Shown: positions 2,083-20,557 of the stretch, one piece after another | How positions within the stretch are numbered: position 1 is the stretch's first letter | Layout: every line of letters begins with the position of its first letter | From: Bifidobacterium tissieri | GTDB lineage: Bacteria; Actinomycetota; Actinomycetes; Actinomycetales; Bifidobacteriaceae | Direction of reading: 5' to 3' | DNA length: 64,000 nt | Assembly: GCF_002259645.1 (NCBI RefSeq) | Contig: NZ_MWWV01000007.1 | Location: 1 to 64,000, forward strand | Notes under the pieces: generated by a model | Databases searched by the model: none | Told to the model about the DNA's origin: nothing | The model's input: the letters and a program-made list of their open reading frames with translations, nothing else | Program-made: the position numbers and the translations under genes

Positions 2083-2787
2083 TTAGTTCGCCGGGGCCAA
2101 GGCGAGCTCGGAAAGACGCTCCTGAATAGCCGCGGTAATGACCGGATCATCCTCCAACGTGGGAAGGAATACAGCGTCGGAGGTCAGCGCCTCGACGCGG
2201 GCCTTGATCTTGTTGGCAAGACGTCCGTCGGTGAGGAACAGGCGCTCGACGATCAACGGGCCGGGATCGACGCGCAGCGTCTCCTCGATCAACGGATGGC
2301 CGATGTGATTCGTGCAGATGATCGGCACGCCGATCTGCCGTTCGACATCGGAGGCCAACGCCTGCAACTGGTCGAACGGTTCGGGGAAGTGCGGAGTGCC
2401 ATGCGCGACCAGCAGAATACGACGTCCAGGATATTCGTTGACCGCCTTGCTCAGATGATCGACCAGGTAGTCGCGCACCGCGCGCGTGGTGGCCAACGGT
2501 TCGGTGACGGACAATGTGACGCCGGGCTTGAGTACCTTGCGCGTGCGCTGCGGAATATCCCAACGCATATGCGTGGCGGAAAACAGCAGCACCGGCACGA
2601 TCGTCAGGTGCGAGACATGGGATTGCAGGTCGCGAATGCCGTCCTCCAGAGTCTGCTCGTCACCCTCAAGAAATGAGATGCGACCGATCTGCTCGGAACG
2701 CTGAATGAAGTTGTTCAGCAGGTCGAGGTTTGACTCGGGAATCTTTCCGCGGCGCCCGTGCAGGACGTAGAGGTATCCAGTGGTCAT
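2083..2787 (-). CDS. sirB: Sirohydrochlorin ferrochelatase (SirB/CbiX-like)
   Basis: A 234-residue CbiX/SirB-type chelatase that would insert Fe2+ into sirohydrochlorin to complete siroheme. The protein shows the two-half chelatase layout: LYVLHGRRGK at the N-terminus (metal-binding His in the HG motif), VPVLLFSATHMRWDIP in the middle, a second LLVAHGTPHF near residue 145, and TNHIGHP later. It lies directly downstream of the flavodoxin/sulfite-reductase pair on the same strand, and precorrin-2 dehydrogenase and methyltransferase genes occur 27 kb away. Cobalt chelation for B12 is the alternative, but no other cobalamin-specific enzymes are in the window. Confidence 0.82.
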   Translation of the reverse strand: MTTGYLYVLHGRRGKIPESNLDLLNNFIQRSEQIGRISFLEGDEQTLEDGIRDLQSHVSHLTIVPVLLFSATHMRWDIPQRTRKVLKPGVTLSVTEPLATTRAVRDYLVDHLSKAVNEYPGRRILLVAHGTPHFPEPFDQLQALASDVERQIGVPIICTNHIGHPLIEETLRVDPGPLIVERLFLTDGRLANKIKARVEALTSDAVFLPTLEDDPVITAAIQERLSELALAPAN

Positions 2788-2812
2788 GATGAGTCCTTGA
2801 TGTGAGACCTTG

Positions 2813-2855
2813 ACGGCTCCCTTCGACGGTGATGAACACCATCGAAGGGAGCCGT
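2813..2855 (-). terminator. Strong hairpin after flavodoxin gene
   Basis: A perfect 14-bp stem, ACGGCTCCCTTCGA (2813-2826) with TCGAAGGGAGCCGT (2842-2855), sits between the flavodoxin stop and the chelatase start. No T-run follows on the minus strand, so it may be a processing or attenuation hairpin that lowers sirB expression relative to sulfite reductase rather than a full terminator. Confidence 0.6.
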
Positions 2856-2906
2856 GACGGGGATGAGTGTGGGGATGAGAGATGGGATCGAGGCCGGGCT
2901 GGGAGA

Positions 2907-3353
2907 TCAGTCCGCGTCGGCGAGGGTCTTGGCGAGATCCTTGATCTTGGCGATCGCGTCGTCGTCGGGGGCGAGCTCGATCTTCAGGGACGGAGCGGCC
3001 AGTTCGGCACCGTCAGCCGTGAGCAGCTTTTCGAAGATGTCCACGGCGGCGCAGAAGTGCGGGTAGCTGGTGTCGCCGGTGCCGAGCACGGCCACCTTCT
3101 TGCCGGACAGGTCGTATCCGTCAAGATCGTCGTAGAAGTCGACGATACCGCCGGGCACTTCGCCGTTGTCGCCGTCGCTCCAGCTGGCCACGACATAGTT
3201 GTCGGCACCGTCGAAGAACTCGTCGACCTCCACGCCGTCCTCGGCGTCGAAGACCTCAACGTCCTGATCCAGATCCTGCAGGGCCTCCTCAAGCAGTTCC
3301 ACGGCCTCCTTGGTGTTGCCGGTCGCGCTCGTGAAAACGATCTTGGTGCTCAT
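2907..3353 (-). CDS. fldA: Flavodoxin (electron donor)
   Basis: A 148-residue short-chain flavodoxin. The FMN phosphate loop TSATGNTKEAVE is at residues 8-19, and the W/Y-containing isoalloxazine loops (VASWSDGDNGEVPGG and GTGDTSYPHFCAA) are at the expected places. The protein is very acidic, as electron-carrier flavodoxins are. Its ATG overlaps the upstream reductase stop by one base (TAATG), implying translational coupling and matched amounts. In this context it most likely passes electrons from the NADPH reductase at 5339 to the siroheme reductase at 3353. Confidence 0.9.
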   Translation of the reverse strand: MSTKIVFTSATGNTKEAVELLEEALQDLDQDVEVFDAEDGVEVDEFFDGADNYVVASWSDGDNGEVPGGIVDFYDDLDGYDLSGKKVAVLGTGDTSYPHFCAAVDIFEKLLTADGAELAAPSLKIELAPDDDAIAKIKDLAKTLADAD

Positions 3354-4984
3354 TACTTCAGTACCTCCGTTGCGGGTAGGGTTGCCAGATAATTGTCGAA
3401 AACTTCCTGAAAATGTTCGGTGCCCACACGCTGGTAGTAGTCGTAGAACGACTCCTTGCCCTCATGGGAGTCCTGATAGTCGGCGAGTAGCGAGCCCACC
3501 GCATCGGTGAGCTGCTCGGCGGAGACCACACCCTTCAGCTGTTCGTTGAAGTGACCGCCGTCGAGCAGGCTGCCGCCCACGGATAGCTTGTATCCCGCCG
3601 TGTGCTGACGGTCGGCCGTACGGGCGTGCACGCCTTCGATGCCGATATCGGCGATGGAACGGTGGGCGCAGCCGTTGCCGCATCCCGTGAGCGTGATGTT
3701 CAGCGGGGTGTCGAAGCTGAACCGCTTGTCGAGCTCCTCGACCAGCGGCTTGAACACGGTCTTGGTGTACGCGTTCGCCAGATTGCAGTACTCGGCTCCC
3801 GTGCATGTGGTGCCGTAATCGGCCAGCAGACGCGGGTGGATCGAGAACCGTTCGAAGATCGGCTCGGCCTCAAGAGCGGGCAGATCCTCCTCCTTGATCC
3901 ACGGAATCATGAGATTCTGGCAGTGGTCGAAACGGATCTCGTCCTTGCCGTACTTGCGTGCCACGTCGATCAGCGCCTGGAAATCATCGGCCTGAATACG
4001 GCCGGACGGTACGCTGACGCCCACGTAGTAGTAGCCGTCCTGCAGCTGACGATGCACGCCAAGCGCGGTGCCGTTCGTCCAACCCTTGACCTTGGACACG
4101 CCCTTGGTCTGCAGATCAGGCAATGATTCGCGGATCTTGTCCTCGAACTGTTCGACGCCCCAATCCTTGATCAGAAACTTGAGCCTGGCCTTGGAACGGC
4201 TGCGACGGTAGCCGTAGTCACGGAACAGACGGCAGACGACCTCGGCGAGATCGGCCACGCGGTCGGGCGTGACGAAGATGTTGAGCTGCTGGGCGAGCAT
4301 CGGCTTCATGCCCAGACCGCCGCCGACCTTCACGTTGAAGCCCTTGACCGTGTGACGGCCGATGCGTTTGGTGGCCGGGATGAACGCCAGATCGTTGATC
4401 TCCGCATTGCCCGAGTTGTGACGGTTGCTGCTGATCGAGATCTTGAACTTGCGCGGCAGGTTCGAATAGTCGTAGTTGCCCTGGAAACGACGGTATACGT
4501 CGAGCACGGTCTGACGGGTGTCGAACAGCTCGTCGGGATCGATGCCGGACAGCGGATTGTCGATGATGTTACGCGTGATATCGCCTTCGGCACCCACCGT
4601 GGTGAGGCCCACAGCCTCGATGCCGGCGAAGATGTCGACGAGTTCGGCGAACGGAATCCAGTGGTACTGCACGGCCTGACGGGTGGTCAGGTCAACGATG
4701 CCGTGACCGTACTTGCGGCCGATCCATGCAAGATGATCCGCCTGCTTCACGGTCACACGACCGCCGGGGATCTTGATGCGCATCATGAAGTAGCCTTCGT
4801 CCTGCGGCTTCTGCACCGTCAGACCGGCGTACTTGAAGTACATGTAGTAGCTTTTGTCGACTTCCGAGAACGGCTTCTTGACCAGTTCCGGCAGATCCTT
4901 GAATACGTCAAGGCCATCCTCGTTCAGCTTGCTGATCTCGTTGGCGTTGAGCTTTTGGTCTGCCCAGGTGGCGGTGTAGCTCAT
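3353..4984 (-). CDS. Siroheme [4Fe-4S] sulfite (or nitrite) reductase
   Basis: A 543-residue assimilatory ferredoxin/flavodoxin-dependent sulfite/nitrite reductase. The [4Fe-4S]-siroheme ligands are visible as C394-x5-C400 and C435-x3-C439 (CTGAEYC and CGNGC). Siroheme-contact motifs include TTRQAVQYHW and LPRKFKISIS. The start at 4984 is preceded by GGGGG four bases upstream; a longer in-frame reading begins at 5089 without support. The region GDITRN...NPLSGIDPDELFDTR looks more like nitrite reductase than like mycobacterial SirA, so substrate is assigned from context: the window makes sulfite from taurine and has no nitrate or nitrite gene. Translationally coupled to flavodoxin. Confidence 0.85.
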   Translation of the reverse strand: MSYTATWADQKLNANEISKLNEDGLDVFKDLPELVKKPFSEVDKSYYMYFKYAGLTVQKPQDEGYFMMRIKIPGGRVTVKQADHLAWIGRKYGHGIVDLTTRQAVQYHWIPFAELVDIFAGIEAVGLTTVGAEGDITRNIIDNPLSGIDPDELFDTRQTVLDVYRRFQGNYDYSNLPRKFKISISSNRHNSGNAEINDLAFIPATKRIGRHTVKGFNVKVGGGLGMKPMLAQQLNIFVTPDRVADLAEVVCRLFRDYGYRRSRSKARLKFLIKDWGVEQFEDKIRESLPDLQTKGVSKVKGWTNGTALGVHRQLQDGYYYVGVSVPSGRIQADDFQALIDVARKYGKDEIRFDHCQNLMIPWIKEEDLPALEAEPIFERFSIHPRLLADYGTTCTGAEYCNLANAYTKTVFKPLVEELDKRFSFDTPLNITLTGCGNGCAHRSIADIGIEGVHARTADRQHTAGYKLSVGGSLLDGGHFNEQLKGVVSAEQLTDAVGSLLADYQDSHEGKESFYDYYQRVGTEHFQEVFDNYLATLPATEVLK

Positions 4985-5122
4985 GTGACCCCCAAAATAA
5001 CGTAAAACCCCTAGTGGCTGCGGCCCCGCCGCTGTTGCGTGGCCGGCCGTATGGCTCACAGCGTACAAATGTGCGTGGCGGACTGTCAAAACGGCTCATG
5101 ACGGTCATATAGTGCCCAAAAC

Positions 5123-5138
5123 CGTTGGAATTGCAACG
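5123..5138. promoter_or_regulatory. Palindromic box CGTTG-N6-CAACG, copy 1
   Basis: CGTTGGAATTGCAACG lies 139 bp upstream of the sulfite reductase start, in the divergent promoter region shared with the NADP reductase gene. A second copy follows 87 bp away and a third lies at 55521. The dyad and its repetition suggest an operator for an unidentified dimeric regulator. Confidence 0.6.
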
Positions 5139-5209
5139 AAAACGTGATGTCAAGAGCGGACGGGTGTGAGAAAGTACGGTGACGGTTCTATTTGTGAACC
5201 GTTATCAAT

Positions 5210-5225
5210 CGTTGAAATTGCAACG
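5210..5225. promoter_or_regulatory. Palindromic box CGTTG-N6-CAACG, copy 2
   Basis: CGTTGAAATTGCAACG differs from copy 1 by one base in the spacer and lies 114 bp upstream of the NADP reductase start. Copy 2 is the box nearer the rightward gene and copy 1 the one nearer the leftward gene, so each transcription unit may have its own box. Confidence 0.6.
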
Positions 5226-5338
5226 TTTTCGGCAGTGTTGGCAGTGTTTCGTCAACGGTGGTGAATCCGTATACTGGCGGCTATCGTCATGCACAATGCG
5301 TGCGTAATGCGTCATATACAACACTAGGGGGAACCATT

Positions 5339-6319
5339 ATGACCGATGAGACGCTGACCGATGTGACCGTGATCGGGGGAGGACCGGTGGGCATGTTCAC
5401 CGCGTTCTATGCGGCCATGCGCAATCTTGATGTGCAGCTGGTCGACAGTCTGCCCGAACTCGGCGGTCAGGTGGCGGCGCTCTACCCGGAGAAGCCGATC
5501 CACGACATCGCCGGATTCGTGTCAGGAACGGGCGCGGAACTCATCGCCAATCTCAAACGGCAGATCGAATCGTTTGGTGACCGGATCGATGTGCACACGA
5601 ACGAGGAGGTGACCGGACTCGAACGTCGTGATGACGGTACGTTCATCCTGCGCACGGCGAATCGTGAGATCCATACGCGCAGTGTGATCGTGGCCATCGG
5701 CAGCGGTGCGTTCAGCCCGCGTCCGTTGGCCATTGACTATGATCGTGAGCAGCTCGACGGACGCAAGGTGTTCTACTTCGTCAAGCGTCTGGCCGATTTC
5801 AAGGGCAAGACCGTGGCTGTGGCGGGCGGTGGCGACGCGGCGATCGACTGGGCGCTCGAACTGGAGCAGATCGCCGAAAAGGTGGTGCTCATCCATCGTC
5901 GCGACAACTTCCGTGCGCTTGAATCCAGCGTCACCCGGCTCAAGGAGTCCACGGTGGCGATCCTGACCCCGTACAAGTTCACCACCGTGGCCGGCACGCC
6001 GGACGGTCTGCATATCGAACTGGCGAAGATCAAGAGCGACGAGACGCTTGATCTCGACGTGGATGCGCTGCTGGTCAACTACGGGTTCACCTCCGACAAC
6101 CATGTGCTGCGCGATTGGGGATTGCCGGTCAAGCGCGGCGACCTGCAGGTGAACGAGTATCTGGAAACCGACGTGCCGGGCATCTACGGCGTAGGTGACG
6201 CGGTGAACTATCCGGGCAAGGTGAAGCTCATCTCCGCGGGATTCGGCGAGGTGCCGCGTGCGGTGAACCATCTGGCCGAGCAGCTGTATCCGGATCGAAA
6301 GCAGCCGCTGCACAGCTGA
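5339..6319 (+). CDS. Ferredoxin/flavodoxin--NADP+ reductase (thioredoxin-reductase-like)
   Basis: A 326-residue FAD/NAD(P)H oxidoreductase of the YumC-type ferredoxin-NADP reductase group. FAD dinucleotide fold: TVIGGGPVGMFTAFYAA at the N-terminus. NADPH fold: VAVAGGGDAAIDWALEL in the middle. C-terminal FAD motif: GIYGVGDAVNYPGKVKLISAGFGE. There is no CxxC disulfide between the two folds, which excludes thioredoxin reductase. Start chosen at the ATG following AGGGGG. It is divergent from the flavodoxin/sulfite reductase operon and is the natural NADPH entry point for that chain. Confidence 0.88.
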   Translation: MTDETLTDVTVIGGGPVGMFTAFYAAMRNLDVQLVDSLPELGGQVAALYPEKPIHDIAGFVSGTGAELIANLKRQIESFGDRIDVHTNEEVTGLERRDDGTFILRTANREIHTRSVIVAIGSGAFSPRPLAIDYDREQLDGRKVFYFVKRLADFKGKTVAVAGGGDAAIDWALELEQIAEKVVLIHRRDNFRALESSVTRLKESTVAILTPYKFTTVAGTPDGLHIELAKIKSDETLDLDVDALLVNYGFTSDNHVLRDWGLPVKRGDLQVNEYLETDVPGIYGVGDAVNYPGKVKLISAGFGEVPRAVNHLAEQLYPDRKQPLHS

Positions 6320-6342
6320 GCGGGTGCTTTCGTAGTTGGCTG

Positions 6343-6374
6343 GCGGGTGACCTGACGCAGGGTCACCCGCTTTG
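6343..6374 (+). terminator. Intrinsic terminator after NADP reductase
   Basis: Stem GCGGGTGACC (6343-6352) pairs with GGTCACCCGC (6361-6370), followed by a short TTTG. It lies 23 bp after the stop codon. Confidence 0.7.
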
Positions 6375-6388
6375 TGAGAGCGTGCGAT

Positions 6389-6655
6389 CTATTCCGATTT
6401 TCGAGCGTTCTTCTCGCGCTCTAGATAATTGAGCCTGATCTCGATGTGGTAAAGAGCCTGAATGACCTCTGCAGATAGGGTTTCCATTGTGAATGTCGGA
6501 TTGCCGTCAGGATCCACGGTGGAGAGTCTTTGACATACAGACTCAATGAAACCGAATGTTGTTGGAGTCTCGTCCTTATCCAAATTCGATTCAAAACTCT
6601 TTAGGAACCGCGTAAAGTCTTCTTCTGTAATTTTCTTACCTATTTTCATTTTCAA
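6389..6655 (-). CDS. Hypothetical protein, AT-richer than neighbours
   Basis: An 88-residue charged protein (MKMKIGKKITEEDFTRFLKS...) with no recognised domain. It is predicted mostly helical: the second half (TMETLSAEVIQALYHIEIRLNYLERE) could form an amphipathic or coiled-coil helix. Its base composition is visibly lower in GC than everything around it, and it sits between a terminator and an inverted repeat, suggesting recent acquisition. No partner gene is visible. It might be an immunity- or antitoxin-like orphan, but nothing in the sequence proves this. Confidence 0.55.
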   Translation of the reverse strand: MKMKIGKKITEEDFTRFLKSFESNLDKDETPTTFGFIESVCQRLSTVDPDGNPTFTMETLSAEVIQALYHIEIRLNYLEREKNARKSE

Positions 6656-6790
6656 GTGTTCCTAGCCAGATGCCATTGTTGTCGAGGCTTATCACGCAAT
6701 AAGCAGAAGGCCACAAAGCCAGCCACGTAATACCTTTCCCCAATCGAATCCCGGTCCGTTCTGGGTCGAACTGGGTCATGAACACCGGCT

Positions 6791-6852
6791 CTGGGTATAA
6801 CCATGTCACGAACACCTTCTTTTTCGCCGCTAACCTACCCGGTTATACCCAG
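6791..6852. repeat. Inverted repeat with 12-bp arms downstream of aminotransferase gene
   Basis: CTGGGTATAACC (6791-6802) pairs exactly with GGTTATACCCAG (6841-6852) across a 38-nt spacer. A similar stem (TCTGGGTGTAACC with its complement) serves as the hairpin at 35854-35895. It lies just past the stop of the minus-strand aminotransferase gene, so it may form its transcript end. Confidence 0.55.
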
Positions 6853-6887
6853 ACGTCCGGTAATACCCGTGGTGTCGGATGCGGTTA

Positions 6888-8234
6888 TCAGGCGTTGCAG
6901 AATTTGCGGTCGGCCCAGGCGAGGACGTCGTCGAGCGTGGCGAGCTGTTCGCGCAGTTCGTCCTCGGTGATGATGAGCGGCGGGCAGACGTTGAGGTTCG
7001 ACTCGCGGCCGAACGTGTAGAATCCACGACGCTTCAGCTCGGCGAAGATGGCGGGCATGCGGCCGTTCGACGTATGGTACGGGGCCATGAGTTCACGCGT
7101 GCTCTTGTCGGTCACCAGTGTAAGCGCCGCGAACAGACCGATGCAGCGTGCCTCGCCCACGCAGGCGTGACGCTGGACGAACTCTTCGAGCGCGGGCTTG
7201 AGCACGCCCTCCAACTGCTTCACATGGCCGCAGATGTCGTTGTCCAGATAATACTGGGTGGCGGCCACGCCGGCGGCGCACGCAAGCGGATGCCCGGAAT
7301 AGGTCAGGCCACAGGGCAGCGGATGGTTCTCGAAGAACGCGGAGATCTCCTTGCTGGCGATCACGCCGCCAAGCGGGACCGTGGCACCGGTCACGCCCTT
7401 GGCGAAGGTGATGAGATCCGGAACCAGATCGAAGTTCTGCCAGGTGAACATCTTGCCGGAACGCGCGAATCCGGCCATGACCTCGTCGCAGATGAGCAGG
7501 ATGCCGTTGTCTCGGCACAGCTTCGCCACGCCTTCCATATAACCCTTCGGCGGGATCAGCACACCGTTCGCGCCCACGATCGACTCCATGAGCACGGCCG
7601 CGATGGTCTCCGGCCCCTCATAGCGGATCTGCTCCTCCAGCTGACGCAGATACTGGCGTGTGCAGCGGGCCTCGTCCTCCTCAGTGCGATCGAAGCCGTC
7701 CTCGTACACACTCGGATTGAGGAAATGAATGAACGACGGGGCTGCACCGCCCACTTCGTAGGCGAAACGACGCCAGTCGCCGCTCGCGAACGCGGAGCCC
7801 AGCGTGGAACCATGATAGGAGCGATAGCAGGAGAGGATCTTCGGACGTCCGGTATAGAAGCGGGCGATCTCGATGGCGTTCTCATTGGAATCCGAACCGC
7901 CCAGCGTGAAGAACACCCGCTGGAAATGATCGGCCCCGGCGATGTCGACCAGCAGCTTGGCCAGCTTGCCGCGCGGCTCCACGGCGAAACTTGGTGCGAT
8001 ATAGCACAGTTCGTCGGCCTGACGCTTGATCGCCTCGACCACCACCTTGTTCTGATGGCCGAGATTGGAGCACACCATCTGCGAGCTCATATCGGCGTAC
8101 CGGTTACCGTCGTAATCCCAGAAGTAGATGCCCTCGGCGCGCTTGATGGGCGTGGCGGGAGCCCCCTGCTTCGCCCACGGCTGCAGAACATACTGCTCGT
8201 GAAGATGTGCCACTTCCTCGCCGGTCAACGTCAT
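6888..8234 (-). CDS. toa: Taurine aminotransferase (2-oxoglutarate- or pyruvate-dependent)
   Basis: A 448-residue class-III PLP aminotransferase. Visible hallmarks: GGSDSNENAIEIAR (cofactor-binding, residues 112-125), CYRSYHGST, D250-E251-V, and the Schiff-base lysine K279 in TFAKGVTGA. Proposed reaction: taurine plus 2-oxoglutarate gives sulfoacetaldehyde plus glutamate, delivering taurine nitrogen. Enzymes of this kind (Toa) are known from Bifidobacterium kashiwanohense, and Tpa is the pyruvate-dependent Bilophila counterpart. It is divergent from a sulfoacetaldehyde reductase gene. The amino-donor assignment is by context; the acceptor cannot be told from sequence. HemL (also class III) was considered and rejected because this protein is longer and its neighbours are sulfonate genes. 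Confidence 0.78.
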   Translation of the reverse strand: MTLTGEEVAHLHEQYVLQPWAKQGAPATPIKRAEGIYFWDYDGNRYADMSSQMVCSNLGHQNKVVVEAIKRQADELCYIAPSFAVEPRGKLAKLLVDIAGADHFQRVFFTLGGSDSNENAIEIARFYTGRPKILSCYRSYHGSTLGSAFASGDWRRFAYEVGGAAPSFIHFLNPSVYEDGFDRTEEDEARCTRQYLRQLEEQIRYEGPETIAAVLMESIVGANGVLIPPKGYMEGVAKLCRDNGILLICDEVMAGFARSGKMFTWQNFDLVPDLITFAKGVTGATVPLGGVIASKEISAFFENHPLPCGLTYSGHPLACAAGVAATQYYLDNDICGHVKQLEGVLKPALEEFVQRHACVGEARCIGLFAALTLVTDKSTRELMAPYHTSNGRMPAIFAELKRRGFYTFGRESNLNVCPPLIITEDELREQLATLDDVLAWADRKFCNA

Positions 8235-8598
8235 ATCGAAACCCCTTCCGAAACCGGACTGAAATCATTGGAACGCCCACGGACGTCGTGAGCTGATAGG
8301 CAGTATACGCGGCGACTCCGCGCGGACGAAACGTCGTCAATACCGCGGAATGTCAAGGATTATGCGGAATAGTAATCCGTCATAGCGAATGCCTATAGGC
8401 CTTTTTTCGTTTTTCTGATTTTTCGCGATTTGAGGAGAATATTGTGGTATACGGATTCCGACGACACGCCGGAACCCACGCATGACCGCGTCGGAGGAGG
8501 GGATGCCTCCGGTGCGGTCCGTCACAACAGCAGTATTCGTATTCCACGACGTCAGGAACAGGGCCGACGGGCGCCGTTTCTCGGGGAGGCATCGTCAT
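8235..8598. promoter_or_regulatory. Divergent toa/tauF promoter region
   Basis: Gene-free 364 bp between divergent starts. It contains an inverted repeat GGATTA (8357-8362) / TAATCC (8373-8378) and a palindrome GCCTATAGGC (8391-8400) followed by a T-run. The stretch GGATTATGCGGAAT (8357-8370) resembles GGATTATAGGGATT at 16673-16686 upstream of the lyase gene. No regulator gene is adjacent. Confidence 0.5.
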
Positions 8599-9780
8599 AT
8601 GAAATGGAACTACACGCAGCCGGTCGACATACGATTTGGTGCCGGTCGCGTGGCTGAAATCGGCGAGGTCGCACGTGAACGCGGACTGTATCGCGGGCTT
8701 CTCGTGGCCGGCGGGCACAGTGTGCGCTCCGGTCTGGCCCAGCGCGTGCTCGACCACGGTCGCGGCACGATCGAAGCCGTGTTCAGCGAGTTCTCCCCTA
8801 ACCCCGATGTGACCGAAGTGGACGCCTGTGCCGAACTGATCCGCACGCAGGACGTCGGATTCATCGTGGCGCTCGGCGGCGGCAGCGCGCTCGACCTTGC
8901 CAAGGCCGCGTCCGTGATCGGTGCGGGCAGTCGTGAATCGGTCGGTTCGATCACGGACTATCACGGCACCGGCAAGCCGTTGCCACTCACCCACCTGCCG
9001 CTGATCGCTGTGCCGACGACAGCCGGCACCGGCAGTGAGGTCACCTGCGTCTCCGTGCTGACCAATCGTGCGGCGGGCGTCAAGGCACCCATCGTGTCCA
9101 ACGGGTTCTACCCGGAACTGGCGATCATCGATCCGGAACTCACCTATACCGTGCCGCCATATGTGACCGCATGCACGGGAATGGACGTACTCAGCCAGGC
9201 CATCGAAGGCTACTGGAGTGTGGGTCATCAGCCGATCTGTGACGCGCTCGCCGTGCATGCCGCCCGGCTCGTATTCGAATTCCTACCGAAGGCGTTCACC
9301 ACGCCGGACGATCGGGAGGCGCGCGAGCGCATGTGCGAGGCGTCGGTGACGGCCGGACTGGCGTTCACCCTGCCGAAGACCACGTCCAGTCACGCCTGCT
9401 CGTTCCCGCTGACGAACCGGTACGGCATCGCGCATGGCGAGGCGTGCGCGCTCACGCTTGACTACTTCACGCGGATCAATGCGGCGGACCCCGAAGGACG
9501 GGTGAATGCGTTGGCGCGTTCGCTGGGATATCGGGACGCCGACGGACTGGCCGACGCCATCGCCGATCTGCGGCGAACGCTGGGGCTGCGCGAGAACATC
9601 GCCGATCTCGGACTTGGTGAGTCCGACATTGCGGCGCTGGTACGTGACAGTCATCATCCGAATCTTGACAACAATCCCGTCGTCATCACCGACGACAACC
9701 TACTGGCCCTGTATCGCGGGCTTGCCTCGGGCGGCGCGGCGAATGCAGACAAACACAACGAACGAGAGGAACGTCAATGA
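8599..9780 (+). CDS. tauF: Sulfoacetaldehyde reductase (metal-dependent alcohol dehydrogenase)
   Basis: A 393-residue member of the iron/metal-dependent alcohol dehydrogenase family. It would reduce sulfoacetaldehyde to isethionate with NADH. The nucleotide motif GGGSALDLAKA is at 93-103 and TTAGTGSE at 140-147. Metal-ligand positions read D196, Q200, H265, H279: the usual first His is Gln. The start at 8599 follows GGGGAGG; the longer frame to 8482 is unsupported. Its stop overlaps the permease start by four bases (ATGA), placing it in the importer operon. A related enzyme, TauF, is known from Bifidobacterium kashiwanohense. Phosphonoacetaldehyde reductase is the main alternative; no phosphonate genes are present. 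Confidence 0.78.
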   Translation: MKWNYTQPVDIRFGAGRVAEIGEVARERGLYRGLLVAGGHSVRSGLAQRVLDHGRGTIEAVFSEFSPNPDVTEVDACAELIRTQDVGFIVALGGGSALDLAKAASVIGAGSRESVGSITDYHGTGKPLPLTHLPLIAVPTTAGTGSEVTCVSVLTNRAAGVKAPIVSNGFYPELAIIDPELTYTVPPYVTACTGMDVLSQAIEGYWSVGHQPICDALAVHAARLVFEFLPKAFTTPDDREARERMCEASVTAGLAFTLPKTTSSHACSFPLTNRYGIAHGEACALTLDYFTRINAADPEGRVNALARSLGYRDADGLADAIADLRRTLGLRENIADLGLGESDIAALVRDSHHPNLDNNPVVITDDNLLALYRGLASGGAANADKHNEREERQ

Positions 9781-10676
9781 CCGCCGTAAGCATACCTGCA
9801 TCCAAGGTGACGGAGCGAATCCGTAGCGTATTCGGCCAGCCCGGAGGAAACGGATCGGTGAAATCCGACGGTCGGGTGACCGTGAGCAAGGCGCAGGGGG
9901 TGATCTCCCTGGTGGCGTTCCTGATCGCATGGTGGGCGGTGACCGCGGCCAAGCTGGTCAGCCCGCTGTATCTGCCGAGTCCGGCGGCGGTGTGGGACGC
10001 GTTCGTGAAGGCGAACACCTGCAATCCGATCGCGGCCGGCTCCGATCGCATCGTCTGCGGTGTGCAGCAGTACTTCCTGTGGCAGCATCTGCTCATGAGC
10101 CTGGAACGCATCGGCGTGGGATTGGCGCTCGCCATCGGATTCGGCGTGCTCGTCGGATTCGTACTCGCCAACGTGACGGTGCTCAACCGGCTGGTGATGC
10201 CGTACATCAACTTCATCCGTGCGTTGCCGCCGCTGGGATACATCGGTCTGCTGATCGTCTGGTTCGGCATCGGCGACACCACCAAGATCTGGCTGCTGTT
10301 CCTCGCCGCGTTCCCACCGATCGTGCTCGCCACCATCGACGGCATCTCCAGCGTGAACCGTGATCGTCTGAATTCGGCGCTCTCGTTGGGCGCGAACCGA
10401 CTGCAGCTGCTGGTGCATGTGATGTTCCCGAGCACGCTGCCGTCGATTCTCAACGGCATTCGACTGGCCGTCGGATTCGCGTGGACCACGGTGGTGGCGG
10501 CCGAGCTGAACAACGGTATTCCGGGCATCGGCGCGCTCGCCTACCTGTCCGGTACCGAGATGAACACGCCGCTGACCATCGCGTGCATTCTGGTGATCGG
10601 CGTGGCCGCTCTGGTGCTTGACGGGCTGATCCAGCTGGTGATCCGCGCGCTTACGCCGTGGGTCGGCAAGGAGTAG
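9777..10676 (+). CDS. tauC: Taurine/sulfonate ABC importer permease
   Basis: A 299-residue inner-membrane permease of the SsuC/TauC (binding-protein-dependent) family. Several hydrophobic helices are clear, beginning with GVISLVAFLIAWWAV near residue 45. The conserved coupling loop ALSLGANRLQLLVHVMFPSTLPSILNGIRLAVGFAW, typical of the EAA motif in this family, is near residues 200-235. It starts inside the last codon of the reductase gene and is followed after about 180 bp by the binding-protein gene. The Cys-containing loop CNPIAAGSDRIVCG (residues 80-95) is unusual and might form a disulfide outside. Confidence 0.82.
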   Translation: MTAVSIPASKVTERIRSVFGQPGGNGSVKSDGRVTVSKAQGVISLVAFLIAWWAVTAAKLVSPLYLPSPAAVWDAFVKANTCNPIAAGSDRIVCGVQQYFLWQHLLMSLERIGVGLALAIGFGVLVGFVLANVTVLNRLVMPYINFIRALPPLGYIGLLIVWFGIGDTTKIWLLFLAAFPPIVLATIDGISSVNRDRLNSALSLGANRLQLLVHVMFPSTLPSILNGIRLAVGFAWTTVVAAELNNGIPGIGALAYLSGTEMNTPLTIACILVIGVAALVLDGLIQLVIRALTPWVGKE

Positions 10677-10780: not shown

Positions 10781-10808
10781 GTCGTTGGTGCAAGTGTCGT
10801 TGGCACAA
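10781..10808 (+). repeat. Tandem direct repeat upstream of binding protein
   Basis: GTCGTTGGTGCAA (10781-10793) is followed by GTCGTTGGCACAA (10796-10808) in the 178-bp gap between permease and binding-protein genes. It could be a regulator-binding pair or part of a leader structure that lets the binding protein be made in excess. Confidence 0.4.
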
Positions 10809-10854
10809 GGTGCGGCATGGCAATCAACATCACTATCAACAAGGGGGAAGAACC

Positions 10855-11943
10855 ATGCCCGTTTCATCGAAATCATCGAATGCGTGGCTGCGCAAGGCAT
10901 TGTCCGTGATCGCGGCGGGGGCCGCGGTATTGTCGCTCACGGCGTGCGGCGGCATGAAGACGGCTGATCAGGTGGCCGGCAACACCGACGCATCGTCGGC
11001 AAACGGCGCCTGCCCGACCGATGTCAACAACGATTTCACCGGAACCGTGCGTGTGGGATGGCAGGCCATTCCGAACGCCGATCTGGTGGTGAAGGATCAG
11101 AAGCTGCTGGAGTCCTGCCTGCCCAAGGCGACCATCAAGTGGAGCCAGTTCAACTCCGGTGCCGACGTGTTGCAGGCGTTCGGCGCGAAGTCCCTAGACA
11201 TCGCGCTGCTGGGATCCAGCCCGTCGGTGAAGGCCGTGAGCGGCCCGCTCAACCTGCCGGTGCAGGTGGTGTGGATCAACGATGTGATCGGTGAGGCCGA
11301 GTCGTTGGTGACGCAGGCGCAGGGCGTGTCCTCGATCAAGGATCTCAAGGGCAAGACCATTGCCGTGCCGTTCGGATCGACGTCGCACTTCAGCCTGCTG
11401 TCGGCCCTGAGCGAGGCGGGTCTGACCGAGTCCGATGTGAAGCTGGTGAACCTTGATCCGGACAAGATGCCGGCCGCGTGGGAGCGCAAGGAGATCGACG
11501 CCGCATGGGTGTGGGACCCGGTGCTGAGCCAGCTCAAGGAGAAGGGCGGCACCACGGTGACGTCGAGTGCCGAAACCGCGAAGACCGGTGCGCCGACCTA
11601 CGATCTGGAGCTTGCCGACAGCACGTTCATCAAGGACAATCCGGCGGTGCTTGACACCTGGACCGCAGTGGAGAACCACGCCGTGCAGCAGGTGAAGAAG
11701 GCCGACGACAAGGCCGTGGACTCCATCGCCGTGCAGCTCAACGTGAAGCCTGATCAGGTGCGCCAGCAGCTCAAGGGGTACACGTATCTCGACGCTGCGG
11801 AGCAGGCCAAGGCCTTTGATGATCTGCCCGGCGTGTTCTCCAAGACCGCCGAGTTCCTGAAGAGCCAAGGCGGACTCGACTCCGTGGCATCCAGCTATGA
11901 TTCGGCGCTCTACACCGACGCGATTCAGAAGGCAAGCAAGTAG
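10855..11943 (+). CDS. tauA: Taurine/sulfonate ABC importer, substrate-binding lipoprotein
   Basis: A 362-residue secreted lipoprotein. Signal peptide with lipobox LSLTACGG, acylated cysteine C31. The mature part is a SsuA/TauA-type periplasmic-binding fold: VRVGWQAIPNADLVVKDQKLLE, FGAKSLDIALLGSSPSVKAV, and GKTIAVPFGSTSHFSLLSALSEAGL are recognisable family stretches. Start at 10855 after AAGGGGG. The gene precedes the ATPase gene by 15 bp and belongs to the tauF-tauC-tauA-tauB operon. Taurine is the substrate suggested by the neighbouring aminotransferase and reductase; other alkanesulfonates are possible. Confidence 0.82.
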   Translation: MPVSSKSSNAWLRKALSVIAAGAAVLSLTACGGMKTADQVAGNTDASSANGACPTDVNNDFTGTVRVGWQAIPNADLVVKDQKLLESCLPKATIKWSQFNSGADVLQAFGAKSLDIALLGSSPSVKAVSGPLNLPVQVVWINDVIGEAESLVTQAQGVSSIKDLKGKTIAVPFGSTSHFSLLSALSEAGLTESDVKLVNLDPDKMPAAWERKEIDAAWVWDPVLSQLKEKGGTTVTSSAETAKTGAPTYDLELADSTFIKDNPAVLDTWTAVENHAVQQVKKADDKAVDSIAVQLNVKPDQVRQQLKGYTYLDAAEQAKAFDDLPGVFSKTAEFLKSQGGLDSVASSYDSALYTDAIQKASK

Positions 11944-11958
11944 GCGAGTAGGAGAACC

Positions 11959-12741
11959 ATGACCGATACCCAACCGGCCGTCGCCATCCGAGGCGTGACC
12001 AAACGATTCCACACCGACCGCGGCGAGGACGTGACCGCGCTGCACGACGTCAACCTGACGATCAACGCGCATGACTTCATCACCGTGGTGGGACAGTCCG
12101 GATGCGGCAAGACCACATTGCTGCGCATGCTCGCCGGCTTTGACCAGCCCACCGAAGGGGAGATCCTCATCGACGGACGTTCGGTGAGCGGACCCAGTCC
12201 CGAACGCGGTGTGGTGTTCCAGAAGCCGCAGCTGTATCCGTGGCTGAACGTGCGACGCAACGTGGAATTCGGTCTGCGTATGCAGGGCGTTGACGCCGCT
12301 CGGCGCCAGCGTGTGGCCAACGAGTATCTGTCGATGGTCGGCTTGTCCGATGCGGCCGATCGCAAGCCATATGAGCTGTCCGGCGGCATGCAGCAGCGCG
12401 CGCAGATCGCGCGAGTGCTGGCCGCCGACCCGGCCGTGGTACTGATGGATGAGCCGTTCGGCGCGTTGGATGCCCTGACCAGGGAGAATCTGCAGGTGGA
12501 GTTGCGGCGCATCTGGCAGGAGCAGCGCAAGACCGTGTTCTTCATCACCCACAGCGTGGACGAGGCGATCTTCCTCGGTACTCGAGTGGTGGTGATGAGT
12601 GCGCATCCGGGCACAGTGCTGATGGACATCCCGGTGGACGTGCCGCGCGACCCGGAGCACCCCGAGGACATCGACGCCGTGCGGGACACCGATGAGTTCC
12701 GCACGCTGGAGACGAGGATCTCCGCCGCGATTCACGCGTGA
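11959..12741 (+). CDS. tauB: Taurine/sulfonate ABC importer ATPase
   Basis: A 260-residue ABC ATPase of the SsuB/TauB family. Walker A GQSGCGKTT, Q-loop QKPQLYPW, signature LSGGMQQRAQIARVLA, and Walker B VVLMDEPFGALDALT are complete. The last gene of the operon, ending just before a strong bidirectional hairpin. It would energise uptake through the TauC-type permease. A second, complete importer of the same type lies 12 kb downstream, so the two probably differ in substrate. Confidence 0.88.
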   Translation: MTDTQPAVAIRGVTKRFHTDRGEDVTALHDVNLTINAHDFITVVGQSGCGKTTLLRMLAGFDQPTEGEILIDGRSVSGPSPERGVVFQKPQLYPWLNVRRNVEFGLRMQGVDAARRQRVANEYLSMVGLSDAADRKPYELSGGMQQRAQIARVLAADPAVVLMDEPFGALDALTRENLQVELRRIWQEQRKTVFFITHSVDEAIFLGTRVVVMSAHPGTVLMDIPVDVPRDPEHPEDIDAVRDTDEFRTLETRISAAIHA

Positions 12742-12771
12742 GAGCGGTAGTCGCCGAGTTCTCCATTATGA

Positions 12772-12820
12772 CGATTTGGGGTATGAGTGTTACAACAACG
12801 CTCATACCCCAAAATATTGT
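12772..12820. terminator. Bidirectional terminator between tauB and islB
   Basis: TTTGGGGTATGAG (12775-12787) pairs exactly with CTCATACCCCAAA (12801-12813), with further pairing inside. It lies between converging genes and has A/T tracts on both sides, so it can end transcription in both directions. Confidence 0.85.
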
Positions 12821-12862
12821 TTCTGCGTAGAACTCGACGATCGCCAGTTCCCGTGCATGAGA

Positions 12863-13897
12863 TCAGTCGTGGTATAGGGCTTCGGCGGCCAGACCGGACG
12901 CGAGCGCATCGTCGCGGATCGCGTTGAACAGGTCGTCGTCGAGCTTGACTGATCCCATCGGATAGTTGCGGCCGAGGGCGTGATACTTGCCTTCACCGAA
13001 ACGGTGGTAGCGCAACGGTTGATAGGTGATGTTCGCGTCGGCACCGCCCAGTCCGTGCAGGAAGTCGAGAATGGCGGCCACGTCCTCGCGTGAATCGTTG
13101 AAGCCGGGGATGATCGGCGTGCGTACCAGTTTGGGGATTTCCGGATGGTCGGCGCAGAGGCGGCGGAAGTTGTCGAGGATGCGGGTGTTGCCGAAGCCGG
13201 TCCATTCGCGGTGTTTCGCATCGTTCATGGATTTGATGTCGAACAGCACGTAGTCCAGATGTTCGGCGGCGCTGGCCAGCGAGGCGTAGGGCGCGTATCC
13301 GCAGGTTTCGATGGCGGTGGAGATGCCCCGATCGTGGGCACCGGCGAGCAGGGAGGTGAGGAACGTCCGGTGGGAGAGCGGTTCGCCGCCGGATACGGTG
13401 AGACCGCCGCCGCTGCGGTCGAAGAACACTTCGTCGCGTTCCACGACGTCGAGGATTTCGTCCACGCGCATGGGACGGCCTTCCAGGGTGAGTGCCTTGG
13501 AAGGGCAGGTTTTGGCGAAGGCGGTGATCTCGTTGAGATCGAGGCGGTCGAGCCGTTCGTGGTCGAGGGTGATGGTGTCGGTTCCCGGTGCGGTACGCAC
13601 CGCTCCCGGGCAGGCCAGTGCGCATCGGTCGCAACCCATGCCGGCGATGCATTTGTCGGCCACGTAGCTGACCTCGGGGCCGAAGCGCTGCGATTCGGGG
13701 TTGCTGCACCACGGGCAGCGTAGCGGGCAGCCTTTGAGAAACACGATGGTGCGGATGCCCGGGCCGTCGTGCAGCGAATAGTGCTGGATGTTGAACACCA
13801 GTGCCGAGTCCTTGGGCATGAGTTTGCGCCATTCGCCGGTGGGCTTGGAGGAGCGGCTGCGATCCTCGAGGATGCGGCTGACGAGTGACGATTGCAT
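12863..13897 (-). CDS. islB: Glycyl-radical enzyme activase (isethionate lyase activating enzyme)
   Basis: A 344-residue radical-SAM activase. The SAM cluster is C57-x3-C61-x2-C64 (GCPLRCPWC). A ferredoxin-like insert with C83, C89, C92, C96 and C131 provides auxiliary clusters, as in activases of choline, glycerol and isethionate lyases and unlike PflA. The GGEPL motif and a C-terminal barrel follow. It would abstract hydrogen from G801 of the adjacent lyase. It lies downstream of islA on the same strand, separated by 177 bp with two large hairpins. The first 27 residues are a basic extension; a later ATG at 13819 is possible. Confidence 0.85.
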   Translation of the reverse strand: MQSSLVSRILEDRSRSSKPTGEWRKLMPKDSALVFNIQHYSLHDGPGIRTIVFLKGCPLRCPWCSNPESQRFGPEVSYVADKCIAGMGCDRCALACPGAVRTAPGTDTITLDHERLDRLDLNEITAFAKTCPSKALTLEGRPMRVDEILDVVERDEVFFDRSGGGLTVSGGEPLSHRTFLTSLLAGAHDRGISTAIETCGYAPYASLASAAEHLDYVLFDIKSMNDAKHREWTGFGNTRILDNFRRLCADHPEIPKLVRTPIIPGFNDSREDVAAILDFLHGLGGADANITYQPLRYHRFGEGKYHALGRNYPMGSVKLDDDLFNAIRDDALASGLAAEALYHD

Positions 13898-13948
13898 AGG
13901 AGCCTCGGGCGTGGTGTTGGAAACGGGAATATGGCAATGACCGGAGAA

Positions 13949-14030
13949 GGTTGTGGGATTCCCGCCGCAGGGGCTGGGAATCCCACAACCATGAGTCGAT
14001 ATATATAAATATGTATTTATTTATATATAT
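13949..14030 (-). promoter_or_regulatory. Two stacked hairpins between islA and islB
   Basis: Stem 1: a perfect 15-bp inverted repeat, GGTTGTGGGATTCCC (13949-13963) with its complement at 13976-13990. Stem 2: a perfect 13-bp all-A/T repeat, 13999-14011 with 14018-14030. In the islA transcript they come after the stop codon and before the activase gene. They probably reduce or stabilise part of the message so that lyase greatly exceeds activase. Confidence 0.65.
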
Positions 14031-14074
14031 GTATATGAGTGTGAGGCGCTCACGGCGCGTGGAATCAGGATGTC

Positions 14075-16555
14075 TTAGAAGGCTTCCTGCTCGTTGCGGG
14101 AGATGAGCTCGTCCTGCAGATCCTTCGACAGCTCGGTGAAGAACGCGGAGTATCCGGCGATGCGCACGATGAGGTTCCGGTACAGTTCCGGATGCTTCTG
14201 CGCCTCGCGCAGCGTCTCGTTGTTCATCACGTTGAACTGCACGTGCCACAGCTTGAGGTCGCGCCAGGTCTCGATGAACTCGACGAGCTTCTCCGTGCCT
14301 TCCTTGCCGGCCACGCAGCCGGGGGAGAGCTTGATGTTGAGCAGTCGGCCGGCATGCTCGTTGTGGTCGAAGTTCTTGGTCAGGTAGTTCGACAGCAGGA
14401 TCGCGGTGGGGCCTTCGTGATCGGCACCTTGCGCGGCGGAGGATCCGTCGGACAGCGGCGTGTAGGCGCGACGGCCGTCAGGCGTGGCCGACACCACCTT
14501 GCCGAACGGCACGTGGCTGGTGAACGGCACCAGACGGATGTCCATGTGCACGCCGATCTGTTCGGAGTACTTGGCGGTGAATTCCTGCGCGGTACGGTCG
14601 AGCACCTTGCCGATCTCGTCGGCGTACGGGTCGTCGTTGCCGTAGGACGGGGCGTTCTTCAGCAGCTGGCGGATCACCTCGTAGCCTTCGAAGTCGTGTG
14701 CGCACGCCTCCTTGAGCTCGTGCAGGGTGATCACGTGATCCTCGAATACGAGCTTGCGGATGGCGGCAAGCGAGTCGATCACCGTGGCATAGCCCATGTA
14801 CTCGAGGTAGCCGAGGTCGATGCCTCCCGGGATCTTCGGCTGGTGAAGGTCGATGCACGAGTCGCGGCACAGCTTCTGCAGCATGGAGCCCAGCGGGGTG
14901 GCGAAGTGCTCGGCGCGCAGGCGGATGATCTCATGCTGCTGGATGAACGCGTGCTTGAGCAGGTTGTTCTGCTGCTTGAGGAACGCGGCGAACAGGTCGT
15001 CGAAGCTCGTGAAGTCCTCGAATTCGCCGGTTTCCAGGCCCAGCACCTCGTCGCCGTACTTGAGCATGCGGCCGTTGTACATCACCATTTCCAGCGCGGC
15101 GGCGAAGTTGATGTAGGCGTTCGGGCTGGTGTAGGTGTCGCGGTTCGGCATACGGCATTCGGCGCATCCGGACACGGAGTAGTCGAGCGCCTCATCGAAC
15201 TTGGCACCCTTGCTGAGCAGCAGCGGCACCACGTCCTCGTCGTTGAGCAGCTTCGGGAAGCCCTCGCCGCTCTTGATGGTCAGCGCCACCTCGCGCAGGT
15301 AGCGCTTGGGGGAACGGGTGTGGATGCGGGCGGCAAGATCCGGGTAGTTGAGCGGGAACTCGCGCTTGGACTTGAGCAGAATGTAGGTGAGCTCGTTGGT
15401 GGCGTCGTAGCCCTCCGGGGTCTGGCCTCCGATGGTCACCGCCTCCCAGTGCGCGTAGCCCTCGTTGAACGCGCCACCGGCGTCGGACAGGTACAGGTCG
15501 ATGTACTGGGCCATATCGACCCACATGCATTCGAACAGCTCCTGCGCCTCCTCGGCGGTGATGCGTCCGGCCTCCTTGTCCGCCTTGTAGAACGGGTAGA
15601 GGTACTGGTCCATACGGCCGTTGGAGATGATGGTGCCGGTCTTCTGCTCGATGCGGCTGAACAGCTGCGTGAACCACTGGCTCTGCATGGCCTCGTAGAA
15701 GGTGCGGGCCGGGTGCTCGGGCACCCAACGGCAGGTTTCGGCGATGCGGCGCAGTTCGGCGGCACGCTTCGGATCGGACTCCTCGACGGCCAGCTGCTCG
15801 GCCAGATCGGCGTGACGGTTGGCCCACAGAATGATCGCGTCCGCGGTGAGGATCTCCGCCTCCAGGAACGGGCGCTTCTCGCAGTTGTCGATCGGCGAGA
15901 ACTCGTCGAGCTGCGCCAGACGCTCCTGCGCCTCGGCACGCAGTCCGCCGAAGCCCTTCTTCAGCACGATGTCGTAGTCGTGCACCCACTGCAGGCTCGA
16001 ACGGAACGATGCGGTCTCGTTCACCACGTAACGGGAGGTGAGCGCCTCATCGGGGTTGTAGGTGAGCTTCATGGTCTCCGGGCCCAGCGCCTTGGCCAGA
16101 TCCTCGTGGAAGGTCTTGCCCTTCCAATACGGGGCGATCTCCTCGACGATGATGCGAGCGTCCTCGGGGCTGATGTCGAACGGCGAGCTTTCGCGCGTTG
16201 GCAGCTTCTGAATGGCCAGATCGAGCGTATCGCCGTCAAGTTCCGGGTACAGCAGTCCGTAACGGCCCTCACTGCCGCCACGGCCCACGATCAGCTGATC
16301 CTGGTCGATGTACACGGTGGCCTTTTCCGCGTAGTGGTAAAGCGCCTTGGCCCAGCGCAGCACGAGCGGCTCGCCTTCGGTCTGACGGAAGCTTTCGGTG
16401 AACAGCAGTCCGCGTTCCACATCGACGTGCGGCTTCTCCGCGCGAATGCGGGCCAGAATGTCATTGGCTCGCGTGTGATGCTCGAGCTTGACCGGCTGGT
16501 GTTCGATCTGCTCCTTGATACGGGTCTCCTGCGGAGAGAGTACGACTGTGCTCAA
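14075..16555 (-). CDS. islA: Isethionate sulfite-lyase (glycyl radical enzyme)
   Basis: An 826-residue glycyl radical enzyme proposed to split isethionate into acetaldehyde and sulfite. Catalytic Cys464 and Glu466 lie in SGCAECRMP; the radical Gly801 is in RIAGYSAFF, 25 residues from the end. Positions recalled for Bilophila IslA (R189, Q193, W374, C468, E470, R678, F682, G805) correspond, with a constant offset of four, to R185, Q189, W370, C464, E466, R674, F678 and G801 here. IslA's F680 is Val here. The start is a TTG with GGGAG five bases upstream; no ATG fits. Pyruvate formate-lyase is excluded by the single GCxE cysteine instead of adjacent cysteines. Confidence 0.85.
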   Translation of the reverse strand: MSTVVLSPQETRIKEQIEHQPVKLEHHTRANDILARIRAEKPHVDVERGLLFTESFRQTEGEPLVLRWAKALYHYAEKATVYIDQDQLIVGRGGSEGRYGLLYPELDGDTLDLAIQKLPTRESSPFDISPEDARIIVEEIAPYWKGKTFHEDLAKALGPETMKLTYNPDEALTSRYVVNETASFRSSLQWVHDYDIVLKKGFGGLRAEAQERLAQLDEFSPIDNCEKRPFLEAEILTADAIILWANRHADLAEQLAVEESDPKRAAELRRIAETCRWVPEHPARTFYEAMQSQWFTQLFSRIEQKTGTIISNGRMDQYLYPFYKADKEAGRITAEEAQELFECMWVDMAQYIDLYLSDAGGAFNEGYAHWEAVTIGGQTPEGYDATNELTYILLKSKREFPLNYPDLAARIHTRSPKRYLREVALTIKSGEGFPKLLNDEDVVPLLLSKGAKFDEALDYSVSGCAECRMPNRDTYTSPNAYINFAAALEMVMYNGRMLKYGDEVLGLETGEFEDFTSFDDLFAAFLKQQNNLLKHAFIQQHEIIRLRAEHFATPLGSMLQKLCRDSCIDLHQPKIPGGIDLGYLEYMGYATVIDSLAAIRKLVFEDHVITLHELKEACAHDFEGYEVIRQLLKNAPSYGNDDPYADEIGKVLDRTAQEFTAKYSEQIGVHMDIRLVPFTSHVPFGKVVSATPDGRRAYTPLSDGSSAAQGADHEGPTAILLSNYLTKNFDHNEHAGRLLNIKLSPGCVAGKEGTEKLVEFIETWRDLKLWHVQFNVMNNETLREAQKHPELYRNLIVRIAGYSAFFTELSKDLQDELISRNEQEAF

Positions 16556-20539: not shown

Positions 20540-20557
20540 CGGACGGGGCGCGCAATC

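Follow-up and report, generated by a model that had tools for sequence, protein, structure and literature searches.

The window analysed here, a stretch of 64,000 nucleotides at the start of contig C36 in a Bifidobacterium tissieri genome (2.87 Mb, 99.34% complete), carries what is probably a sulfonate-sulfur assimilation system of a fermenting Bifidobacterium, in which the nitrogen and the sulfur of taurine are both used and the sulfite set free is reduced and assimilated. A sequence-only reading of this DNA had described a complete anaerobic route from taurine to sulfide; that interpretation is likely right in outline, although "complete" is too strong. Every gene it had named is a long open frame at the place given, and Pfam, NCBIfam and PDB matches bear out the assignments. 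The gene content, the active-site residues, the co-occurrence across genomes, the lack of an assimilatory reductase for 3'-phosphoadenylyl sulfate or adenylyl sulfate (PAPS/APS) and a motif common to several spacers were observed directly. As judged from the genes, the modules appear to be known ones in a new combination and a new host, with a putative new regulatory link. The core genes are as follows.

2907..3353, minus strand: short-chain flavodoxin (Pfam Flavodoxin_1, 68 bits; TIGR01753, 107 bits, below the cut-off of 123)
3353..4984, minus strand: siroheme sulfite reductase (SiR), a NIR/SIR hemoprotein (Pfam NIR_SIR and NIR_SIR_ferr; alignment with plant nitrite reductase, NiR)
5339..6319, plus strand: flavin adenine dinucleotide/NAD(P) reductase of the ferredoxin-NADP reductase (FNR)/thioredoxin reductase type (Pfam Pyr_redox_2)
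6888..8234, minus strand: Toa, taurine:2-oxoglutarate aminotransferase (best PDB match 6jix, BkToa, 716 bits, E = 1.9e-214)
8599..9780, plus strand: TauF-type sulfoacetaldehyde reductase (best PDB match 6jko, 522 bits, E = 7.8e-156)
9777..10676, plus strand: TauC permease (best NCBIfam model TauC, 187.5 bits, below the cut-off of 342)
10810..11943, plus strand: TauA substrate-binding protein (TIGR01729, 195 bits, below the cut-off of 304)
11959..12741, plus strand: TauB ATPase (best NCBIfam model TauB, 253 bits, below the cut-off of 357)
12863..13897, minus strand: IslB-type glycyl radical activase (TIGR02494, 316 bits, over the cut-off; best equivalog HpsH, 377 bits, below the cut-off of 430)
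14075..16603, minus strand: IslA-type isethionate sulfite-lyase, a glycyl radical enzyme (GRE), with its start probably near 16555, where homologues start

The reactions in the organism are deduced from these genes. TauABC would bring taurine in, and Toa would pass its amino group to 2-oxoglutarate, nitrogen being gained as glutamate and sulfoacetaldehyde being the product; TauF would convert the latter to isethionate, which IslB-activated IslA would cleave to acetaldehyde and sulfite. The acetaldehyde could leave as ethanol or acetyl-CoA through fermentative dehydrogenases. The siroheme reductase would then turn sulfite into sulfide with electrons from the flavodoxin, its probable electron donor, and the FNR-like protein, and sulfide would be fixed by a CysK-like enzyme or by a homoserine sulfhydrylase (the latter taken from the B. 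longum literature). A YeiH-family transporter may ease sulfite stress, and siroheme would be made from 5-aminolevulinate (ALA) onwards by HemB, HemC, HemD, CobA, CysG_N and a CbiX-type chelatase, with hemB/cobA and hemC having an operator-like motif in common with islA and toa.

The GRE matched best 7kq3 (BwIslA, 1190 bits) in the PDB, followed by 5ymr (1179 bits), which we take to be the Desulfovibrio IslA, and 6lon (1091 bits), which we take to be HpsG. Its residues and its place in a tree were assessed on an alignment of 13 proteins with seven bifidobacterial rows and a single HpsG sequence, 6lon. The positions at which mutation abolishes or lowers IslA activity, and their roles, were taken from PMC8473560 (this and the other papers are cited for the excerpts of them that were available). 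All eight activity-critical residues (R189, Q193, W374, C468, E470, R678, F682 and G805) are conserved in all seven bifidobacterial rows; these comprise the equivalents of the catalytic Cys468 and Glu470 and the radical Gly805, the sulfonate-binding R189, Q193 and R678, and the aromatic W374 and F682. Ten mutated positions were checked, nine of which are conserved (V680 too), the tenth being I192, replaced by Leu. Changing F682 to Ala or Tyr caused a strong loss of IslA activity (PMC8473560), and this position is Phe in the seven rows and both IslA chains and Ile in 6lon, the one HpsG sequence. Over its whole length the GRE shares 62.5 and 64.2% identity with the two IslA chains, as against 58.6% with 6lon, a slight edge for IslA. 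The two chains have the same residue, different from that of 6lon, at 147 positions; of these, 71 are IslA-like throughout the bifidobacterial rows, against 22 that are 6lon-like and 54 mixed. We therefore read the GRE as IslA-type, isethionate being its probable substrate from residues and context. The critical residues, F682 among them, agree with the earlier naming of the enzyme as an isethionate lyase; its closest NCBIfam model is HpsG.

Family-wide searches covered 189 genomes, one per species, with E-value limits set per query (IslA 1e-180, SiR 1e-20, TauF 1e-70, Toa 1e-150). IslA was found in eight genomes (in one of them in two frames) and SiR in ten. A check suggested by the sequence-only reading, a search of genomes for islA together with the siroheme reductase, came out in its favour: seven of the eight islA genomes have both (Fisher value 6e-10, kinship ignored). 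The eighth, G100, is an incomplete metagenome-assembled genome (MAG; 78% complete) whose contig stops inside fnr. Toa is present in 24 genomes and TauF in 20. All eight islA genomes have Toa; in seven of them toa and islA lie on one contig, and in G002 the contig with toa starts within islB. The 16 genomes with Toa and no IslA all have TauF, and none has SiR, which upholds the contrast drawn earlier with the Toa/TauF system of B. kashiwanohense. Scanning named genomes with the GRE as query, which picks up close relatives only, gave seven loci, all from Bifidobacterium (pluvialisilvae, primatium, saimiriisciurei, catulorum, callimiconis, callitrichos and one MAG), the nearest being B. callimiconis at 97%. 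B. callimiconis, B. primatium and B. saimiriisciurei each combine an uninterrupted islA frame with sir. Most of the named species presumably live in monkeys, and one member of this small group is a marmoset bacterium.

The arrangement islA-islB, tauBAC, toa, fnr and sir-fld-cbiX is conserved in G001, G004, G005 and G006 (cbiX lies past the contig end in G006), and G002 has the same order split over two contigs; conservation across genomes excludes chance as its origin. An FNR-like gene adjoins sir in all nine other sir genomes. The importer trio scores best with the Tau models, under all their cut-offs, TauA falling under the SsuA cut-off too. TauF is closest to 6jko, which we take to be BkTauF (PDB naming differs). 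The BkTauF active-site residues given in PMC6616044 (D192, Q196, F252, T257, H261, F265 and H275) are conserved in TauF at seven of seven positions, as read from the alignment. Its gene adjoins toa in the window's own genome (G000) and, among the four genomes with conserved order, only in G001; in G005 and G006 it lies elsewhere, with a second Toa. A replacement sulfoacetaldehyde reductase in the islB-tauB gap was considered and rejected, the gap holding, by eye, a small heat-shock protein in L026, L027 and L028 and a transporter in L032.

Profile searches at genus level covered nine genomes, none of which has a PAPS/APS reductase (PF01507; the control was positive in 14 of 14). An assimilatory sulfate route was rejected on this ground. 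At the anion site of the hemoprotein, all ten reductase homologues show Lys-x-Lys and tobacco NiR shows Lys-x-Asn; this difference (Asn226) presumably separates sulfite from nitrite reductases, a rule on which a literature search gave nothing.

The genes for siroheme synthesis are as follows.

2083..2787, minus strand: CbiX-type sirohydrochlorin chelatase, with a presumed SirB role (Pfam CbiX, 54.6 bits, cut-off 22)
30016..30513, minus strand: precorrin-2 dehydrogenase of the CysG N-terminal type (TIGR01470, 80 bits, over the cut-off of 62)
30510..31316, minus strand: CobA uroporphyrinogen-III methyltransferase (TIGR01469, 317 bits, over the cut-off of 185)
31562..32566, plus strand: HemB porphobilinogen synthase (NF006762, 489 bits, over the cut-off of 297)
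32580..33485, plus strand: HemD uroporphyrinogen-III synthase (Pfam HEM4, 38 bits, over the cut-off of 27.5; no NCBIfam match at 1e-10)
34759..35844, plus strand: HemC hydroxymethylbilane synthase (TIGR00212, 285 bits, over the cut-off of 164)

Together these would make up the siroheme pathway from ALA onwards. The earlier description had placed siroheme genes within 2083..16555; this is right for the chelatase, whereas cysG_N, cobA, hemB, hemD and hemC lie outside, at 30.0-35.8 kb, and with yeiH occupy 27.8-35.8 kb. CobA scores over its cut-off in seven of the nine genus genomes, exactly those with SiR. In G090, with SiR and without IslA, hemC, cysG_N, cobA, hemD, yeiH, fnr, sir, fld and cbiX lie with a few other genes in about 14 kb; sulfite reduction thus looks like a core module to which the sulfonate genes were added. 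We also observed that hemB was not seen in the examined stretches of G038, G090 and G094 (L046, L047 and L126), though some of hemC, hemD, cobA and cysG_N are there.

A 20 bp motif, GYCATARC-N6-STATAG (motif 1), is common to the spacers between toa and tauF, islA and an amidohydrolase gene, and cobA and hemB. A second element, a pair of palindromes, lies between sir and fnr.

8379..8398, plus strand: motif 1 in the toa-tauF spacer, no mismatches
16746..16837, no strand assigned: three motif 1 sites in the islA-amidohydrolase/dpp spacer (0, 0 and 1 mismatches)
31447..31466, plus strand: motif 1 in the cobA-hemB spacer, no mismatches
34704..34723, plus strand: weak motif 1 copy upstream of hemC (2 mismatches; 4.1 bits by weight matrix)
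5123..5225, no strand assigned: two palindromes (CGTTGNAATTNCAACG), 87 bp apart, in the sir-fnr spacer

With at most one mismatch, the window holds five motif 1 sites, all in the three spacers, where 0.02 are expected; at three mismatches there are 12 against 8.65 expected, which is not above chance. The pattern was written by eye from four window sites before counting, so a fairer test is given by the hemC copies and by the sites in other genomes. The toa spacer has a site with at most one mismatch in six of the eight islA genomes (G038 has two mismatches there, and G100 a weaker copy), the islA upstream spacer in four (G000, G005, G038 and G100; two mismatches in G001 and G002) and the cobA-hemB spacer in all seven genomes with hemB in the examined sequence. 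Upstream of hemC there is one mismatch in G004, G005 and G006 and two in G000, G001 and G002. A search of the window and some 805 kb of overlapping loci gave 21 distinct sites at this threshold, 20 of them beside toa/tau, islA/amidohydrolase, hemB/cobA or hemC. The 21st, in L045, lies just after a LacI gene; hemC follows this gene in G000 and G001 and would be beyond the examined stretch in L045. None was found in 34 overlapping loci (142 kb) with Toa/TauF clusters lacking islA, nor upstream of sir, fnr, yeiH, tauA, islB, cbiX or fld. The LacI gene at 33558 was considered as the regulator and is not supported, as it is not beside hemC in G002, G004 and G005.

Motif 1 may be an operator-like element and a new link between sulfonate use and siroheme synthesis; the direction of regulation would be a further deduction. 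The CGTTGNAATTNCAACG pair recurs exactly 87 bp apart in all seven sir genomes of the genus (with one mismatch per copy in G002) and is degenerate in the three sir genomes of another genus. Two-mismatch palindrome copies precede an SsuA-like gene in the window (at 24281) and in L027; some loci have further copies close to tau genes, and a one-mismatch copy stands upstream of CbiM (window 55521-55536). This suggests two putative regulators, one for sulfonate use and siroheme synthesis and one for sulfite reduction. The proposal that sulfite is assimilated gains support from the motif common to islA, toa and the siroheme genes, from the co-occurrence of islA with sir and from the missing PAPS/APS reductase (0/9).

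Several observations weigh against sulfonate-sulfur assimilation as we describe it. No HemA scored over its cut-off in the nine genus genomes (sub-cut-off fragments occur in six, none in G000), and ALA synthase gave no match in them. The CysK-like gene, present in eight of the nine, scores 327-333 bits, just under the cut-off of 344. TauF was not found at E<=1e-70 in four of the eight islA genomes (G002, G004, G038 and G100). SiR occurs without IslA in G008, G090 and G094, and the co-occurrence is confined to two related genera, so that the Fisher value overstates independence. The islA copies of motif 1 are weak in G004 and G006; between sir and fnr the only copies have three mismatches (G000, overlapping the start of fnr) and two (G008), and yeiH has none. 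The GRE scores over the curated NCBIfam cut-off for HpsG (1460 against 1000 bits), the only close model there, at position 192 it shares Leu with 6lon where the IslA chains have Ile, and the small GRE tree is a polytomy in which the order of IslA and HpsG is not separated. Lastly, B. callitrichos DSM 23973 (G038, locus L032) was in the set tested for growth without cysteine and is not among the six cysteine-free growers named in the excerpt of PMC4656816.

It is on these grounds that the route falls short of complete: HemA over its cut-off and ALA synthase are missing, HemL-like and CysK-like proteins stay under their cut-offs, and TauF was not found in half of the islA genomes. The HemL-like aminotransferase frames reach 353 bits in G000 and 352 in G001 and G008 (L108, L109 and L110) against a cut-off of 527, other hits being at most 173. 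With neither HemA over its cut-off nor ALA synthase, ALA would have to come from elsewhere. In E. coli, ALA is taken up by Dpp; by analogy, the dipeptide-type (Dpp) importer beside islA is a possible candidate ALA importer. Scavenged ALA perhaps enters by this importer, which shares the regulatory spacer of islA in G000 and G005. The three genomes with SiR and no IslA imply at least one other sulfite source for SiR. In one of them, G008, an arylsulfotransferase-like protein adjoins a fused NMT1/permease protein and an ATPase (L045:7771-12355; similar frames were seen by eye in L048/L049), possibly another sulfur source.

The alternative that survives best, though we consider it unlikely, is that the genes serve nitrogen gain and redox balance only: sulfoacetaldehyde and acetaldehyde would be NADH sinks, sulfite would be expelled by YeiH or detoxified to H2S, and little taurine sulfur would reach biomass. 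A YeiH-family gene does lie within the island, YeiH is required for sulfite resistance in Salmonella, which it confers (PMC12880088), and Toa/TauF occur without IslA in 16 genomes. Most tested bifidobacteria, moreover, require cysteine, cysteine-free growth being reported for only six of 48 (sub)species (PMC4656816). Against this, a single-subunit reductase linked to flavodoxin, together with six siroheme genes, would be costly as a means of detoxification, the siroheme genes have the motif common to islA and toa, and we saw no dissimilatory reductase among the annotated genes of the cluster, though no search aimed at one was made. PMC4656816 also reports that B. bifidum PRL2010 showed no significant growth on taurine as nitrogen and sulfur source; as far as its excerpt goes, taurine was tried for B. 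bifidum alone, and the B. callitrichos DSM 23973 of its strain set has islA in two frames.

Less likely still is an HpsG-like GRE that cleaves dihydroxypropanesulfonate or a different C3 sulfonate, in which case the route would not be taurine-specific. The HpsG score over its cut-off, HpsH as best activase equivalog (below cut-off), the 59% identity to 6lon, Leu192 and the polytomy all fit this. F682 and the 71 against 22 diagnostic positions, however, point to IslA, as does the presence of Toa in 8/8 islA genomes, on the same contig in seven. The NCBIfam output for the GRE contained no IslA model, so the HpsG score does not separate IslA from HpsG, and the HpsG name may be one given by default.

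That the island is decaying or rarely used seems very unlikely. In B. callitrichos DSM 23973, islA is read in two overlapping frames (L032:10001-12483; G038:C11:61767-64249), the break being either real or an assembly error, and TauF was not found in four islA genomes; yet the IslA frames are open in six other genomes, at 92-97% identity, and motif sites are conserved in several. It is likewise very unlikely that the hemoprotein is a nitrite reductase with neighbours unrelated to sulfur. Plant nitrite reductases are its best PDB matches, and in NCBIfam it comes closest to ferredoxin--nitrite reductase (392 bits, below the cut-off of 594), but we reject this reading on the Lys at the tobacco NiR Asn position in 10/10 homologues, a position with a presumed discriminating role, and on the co-occurrence of the reductase with sulfonate genes.

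The sulfonate-sulfur assimilation proposed here resembles the Tpa-SarD-IslAB taurine respiration of Bilophila wadsworthia in its transamination, its reduction to isethionate and its glycyl radical cleavage to sulfite and acetaldehyde. It differs in having a Toa-type aminotransferase, a TauF-type reductase and a TauABC-like importer, and in its host, a fermenter, where the sulfite would go to a siroheme reductase of a single subunit, with flavodoxin. The Toa and TauF homologues are like those of B. kashiwanohense, TauF sharing seven of seven residues, but there isethionate was proposed as a waste of nitrogen assimilation (PMC6616044), unlike the cleavage proposed here. In Rhodobacter capsulatus, IsrBHDK likewise frees isethionate sulfur as sulfite without oxygen, to be assimilated; the native enzyme is nitrogenase-like, the host is phototrophic, and islAB was introduced: given the Bilophila genes, an R. 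capsulatus mutant could again grow with isethionate as its only sulfur source (PMC11423573). Sulfite reductase, siroheme synthesis and sulfide fixation are shared with assimilatory sulfate reduction (CysH, sulfite reductase and siroheme), in contrast to which no PF01507 PAPS/APS reductase is found in any of the nine genus genomes.

The claim of novelty for bifidobacteria holds within the open-licence literature searched, where no description of this route was found; in the excerpt of PMC11540073, bifidobacteria are said to lack sulfate reduction and sulfite reductase. If true, a subgroup that reduces sulfonate sulfur would change the view of who consumes bile taurine, set an assimilatory, fermentative parallel beside the Bilophila route and account for the siroheme genes in this bifidobacterial group. 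More tentatively, and with more doubt than conviction, we can imagine that a genus supposed to depend on cysteine has a conditional regulon for sulfonate sulfur: when taurine or a need for sulfur is sensed, IslA, taurine uptake and siroheme synthesis would be turned on together, ALA would be scavenged, and the bacteria would compete with Bilophila for bile taurine, locking its sulfur in biomass rather than respiring it to H2S, as an adaptation to hosts rich in taurine-conjugated bile. Marmosets are stated to conjugate bile acids with taurine only (PMC12772247), against which glycine-conjugated bile acids appear among marmoset gut metabolites in PMC12363189. A model community with B. longum showed no taurine breakdown without Bilophila, as far as the excerpt of PMC7692227 goes.

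Further transport genes lie between islA and the distal siroheme genes.

16812..24124, plus strand: amidohydrolase and dipeptide-type ATP-binding cassette importer, divergent from islA (Pfam Amidohydro_3, SBP_bac_5, ABC_tran)
24374..27310, plus strand: second NMT1-type (SsuABC-like) importer (Pfam NMT1, BPD_transp_1, ABC_tran)
27762..29234, plus strand: YeiH-family transporter (Pfam PF03601, 168 bits; TIGR00698, 90 bits, below the cut-off of 233)

A protein without Pfam match follows (29283-29723, plus strand) and stands beside yeiH or hemD in L122, L123, L125, L126, L026, L046 and L047. After the island, at 40253-58766, the window holds a gene for a periplasmic-binding protein of amino-acid/urea type, urease subunits and CbiM-type metal transport, so genes for nitrogen from urea and from taurine may stand side by side here. 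An Rfam match to the 5' ureB small RNA (102.8 bits; 47148-47434, minus strand) is antisense to the urease alpha gene and may merely mirror conserved coding sequence. At 48795-51757 (minus strand), ApbE, an FMN-binding domain protein and an NAD-binding oxidoreductase are consecutive and resemble flavin-based electron transfer sets.

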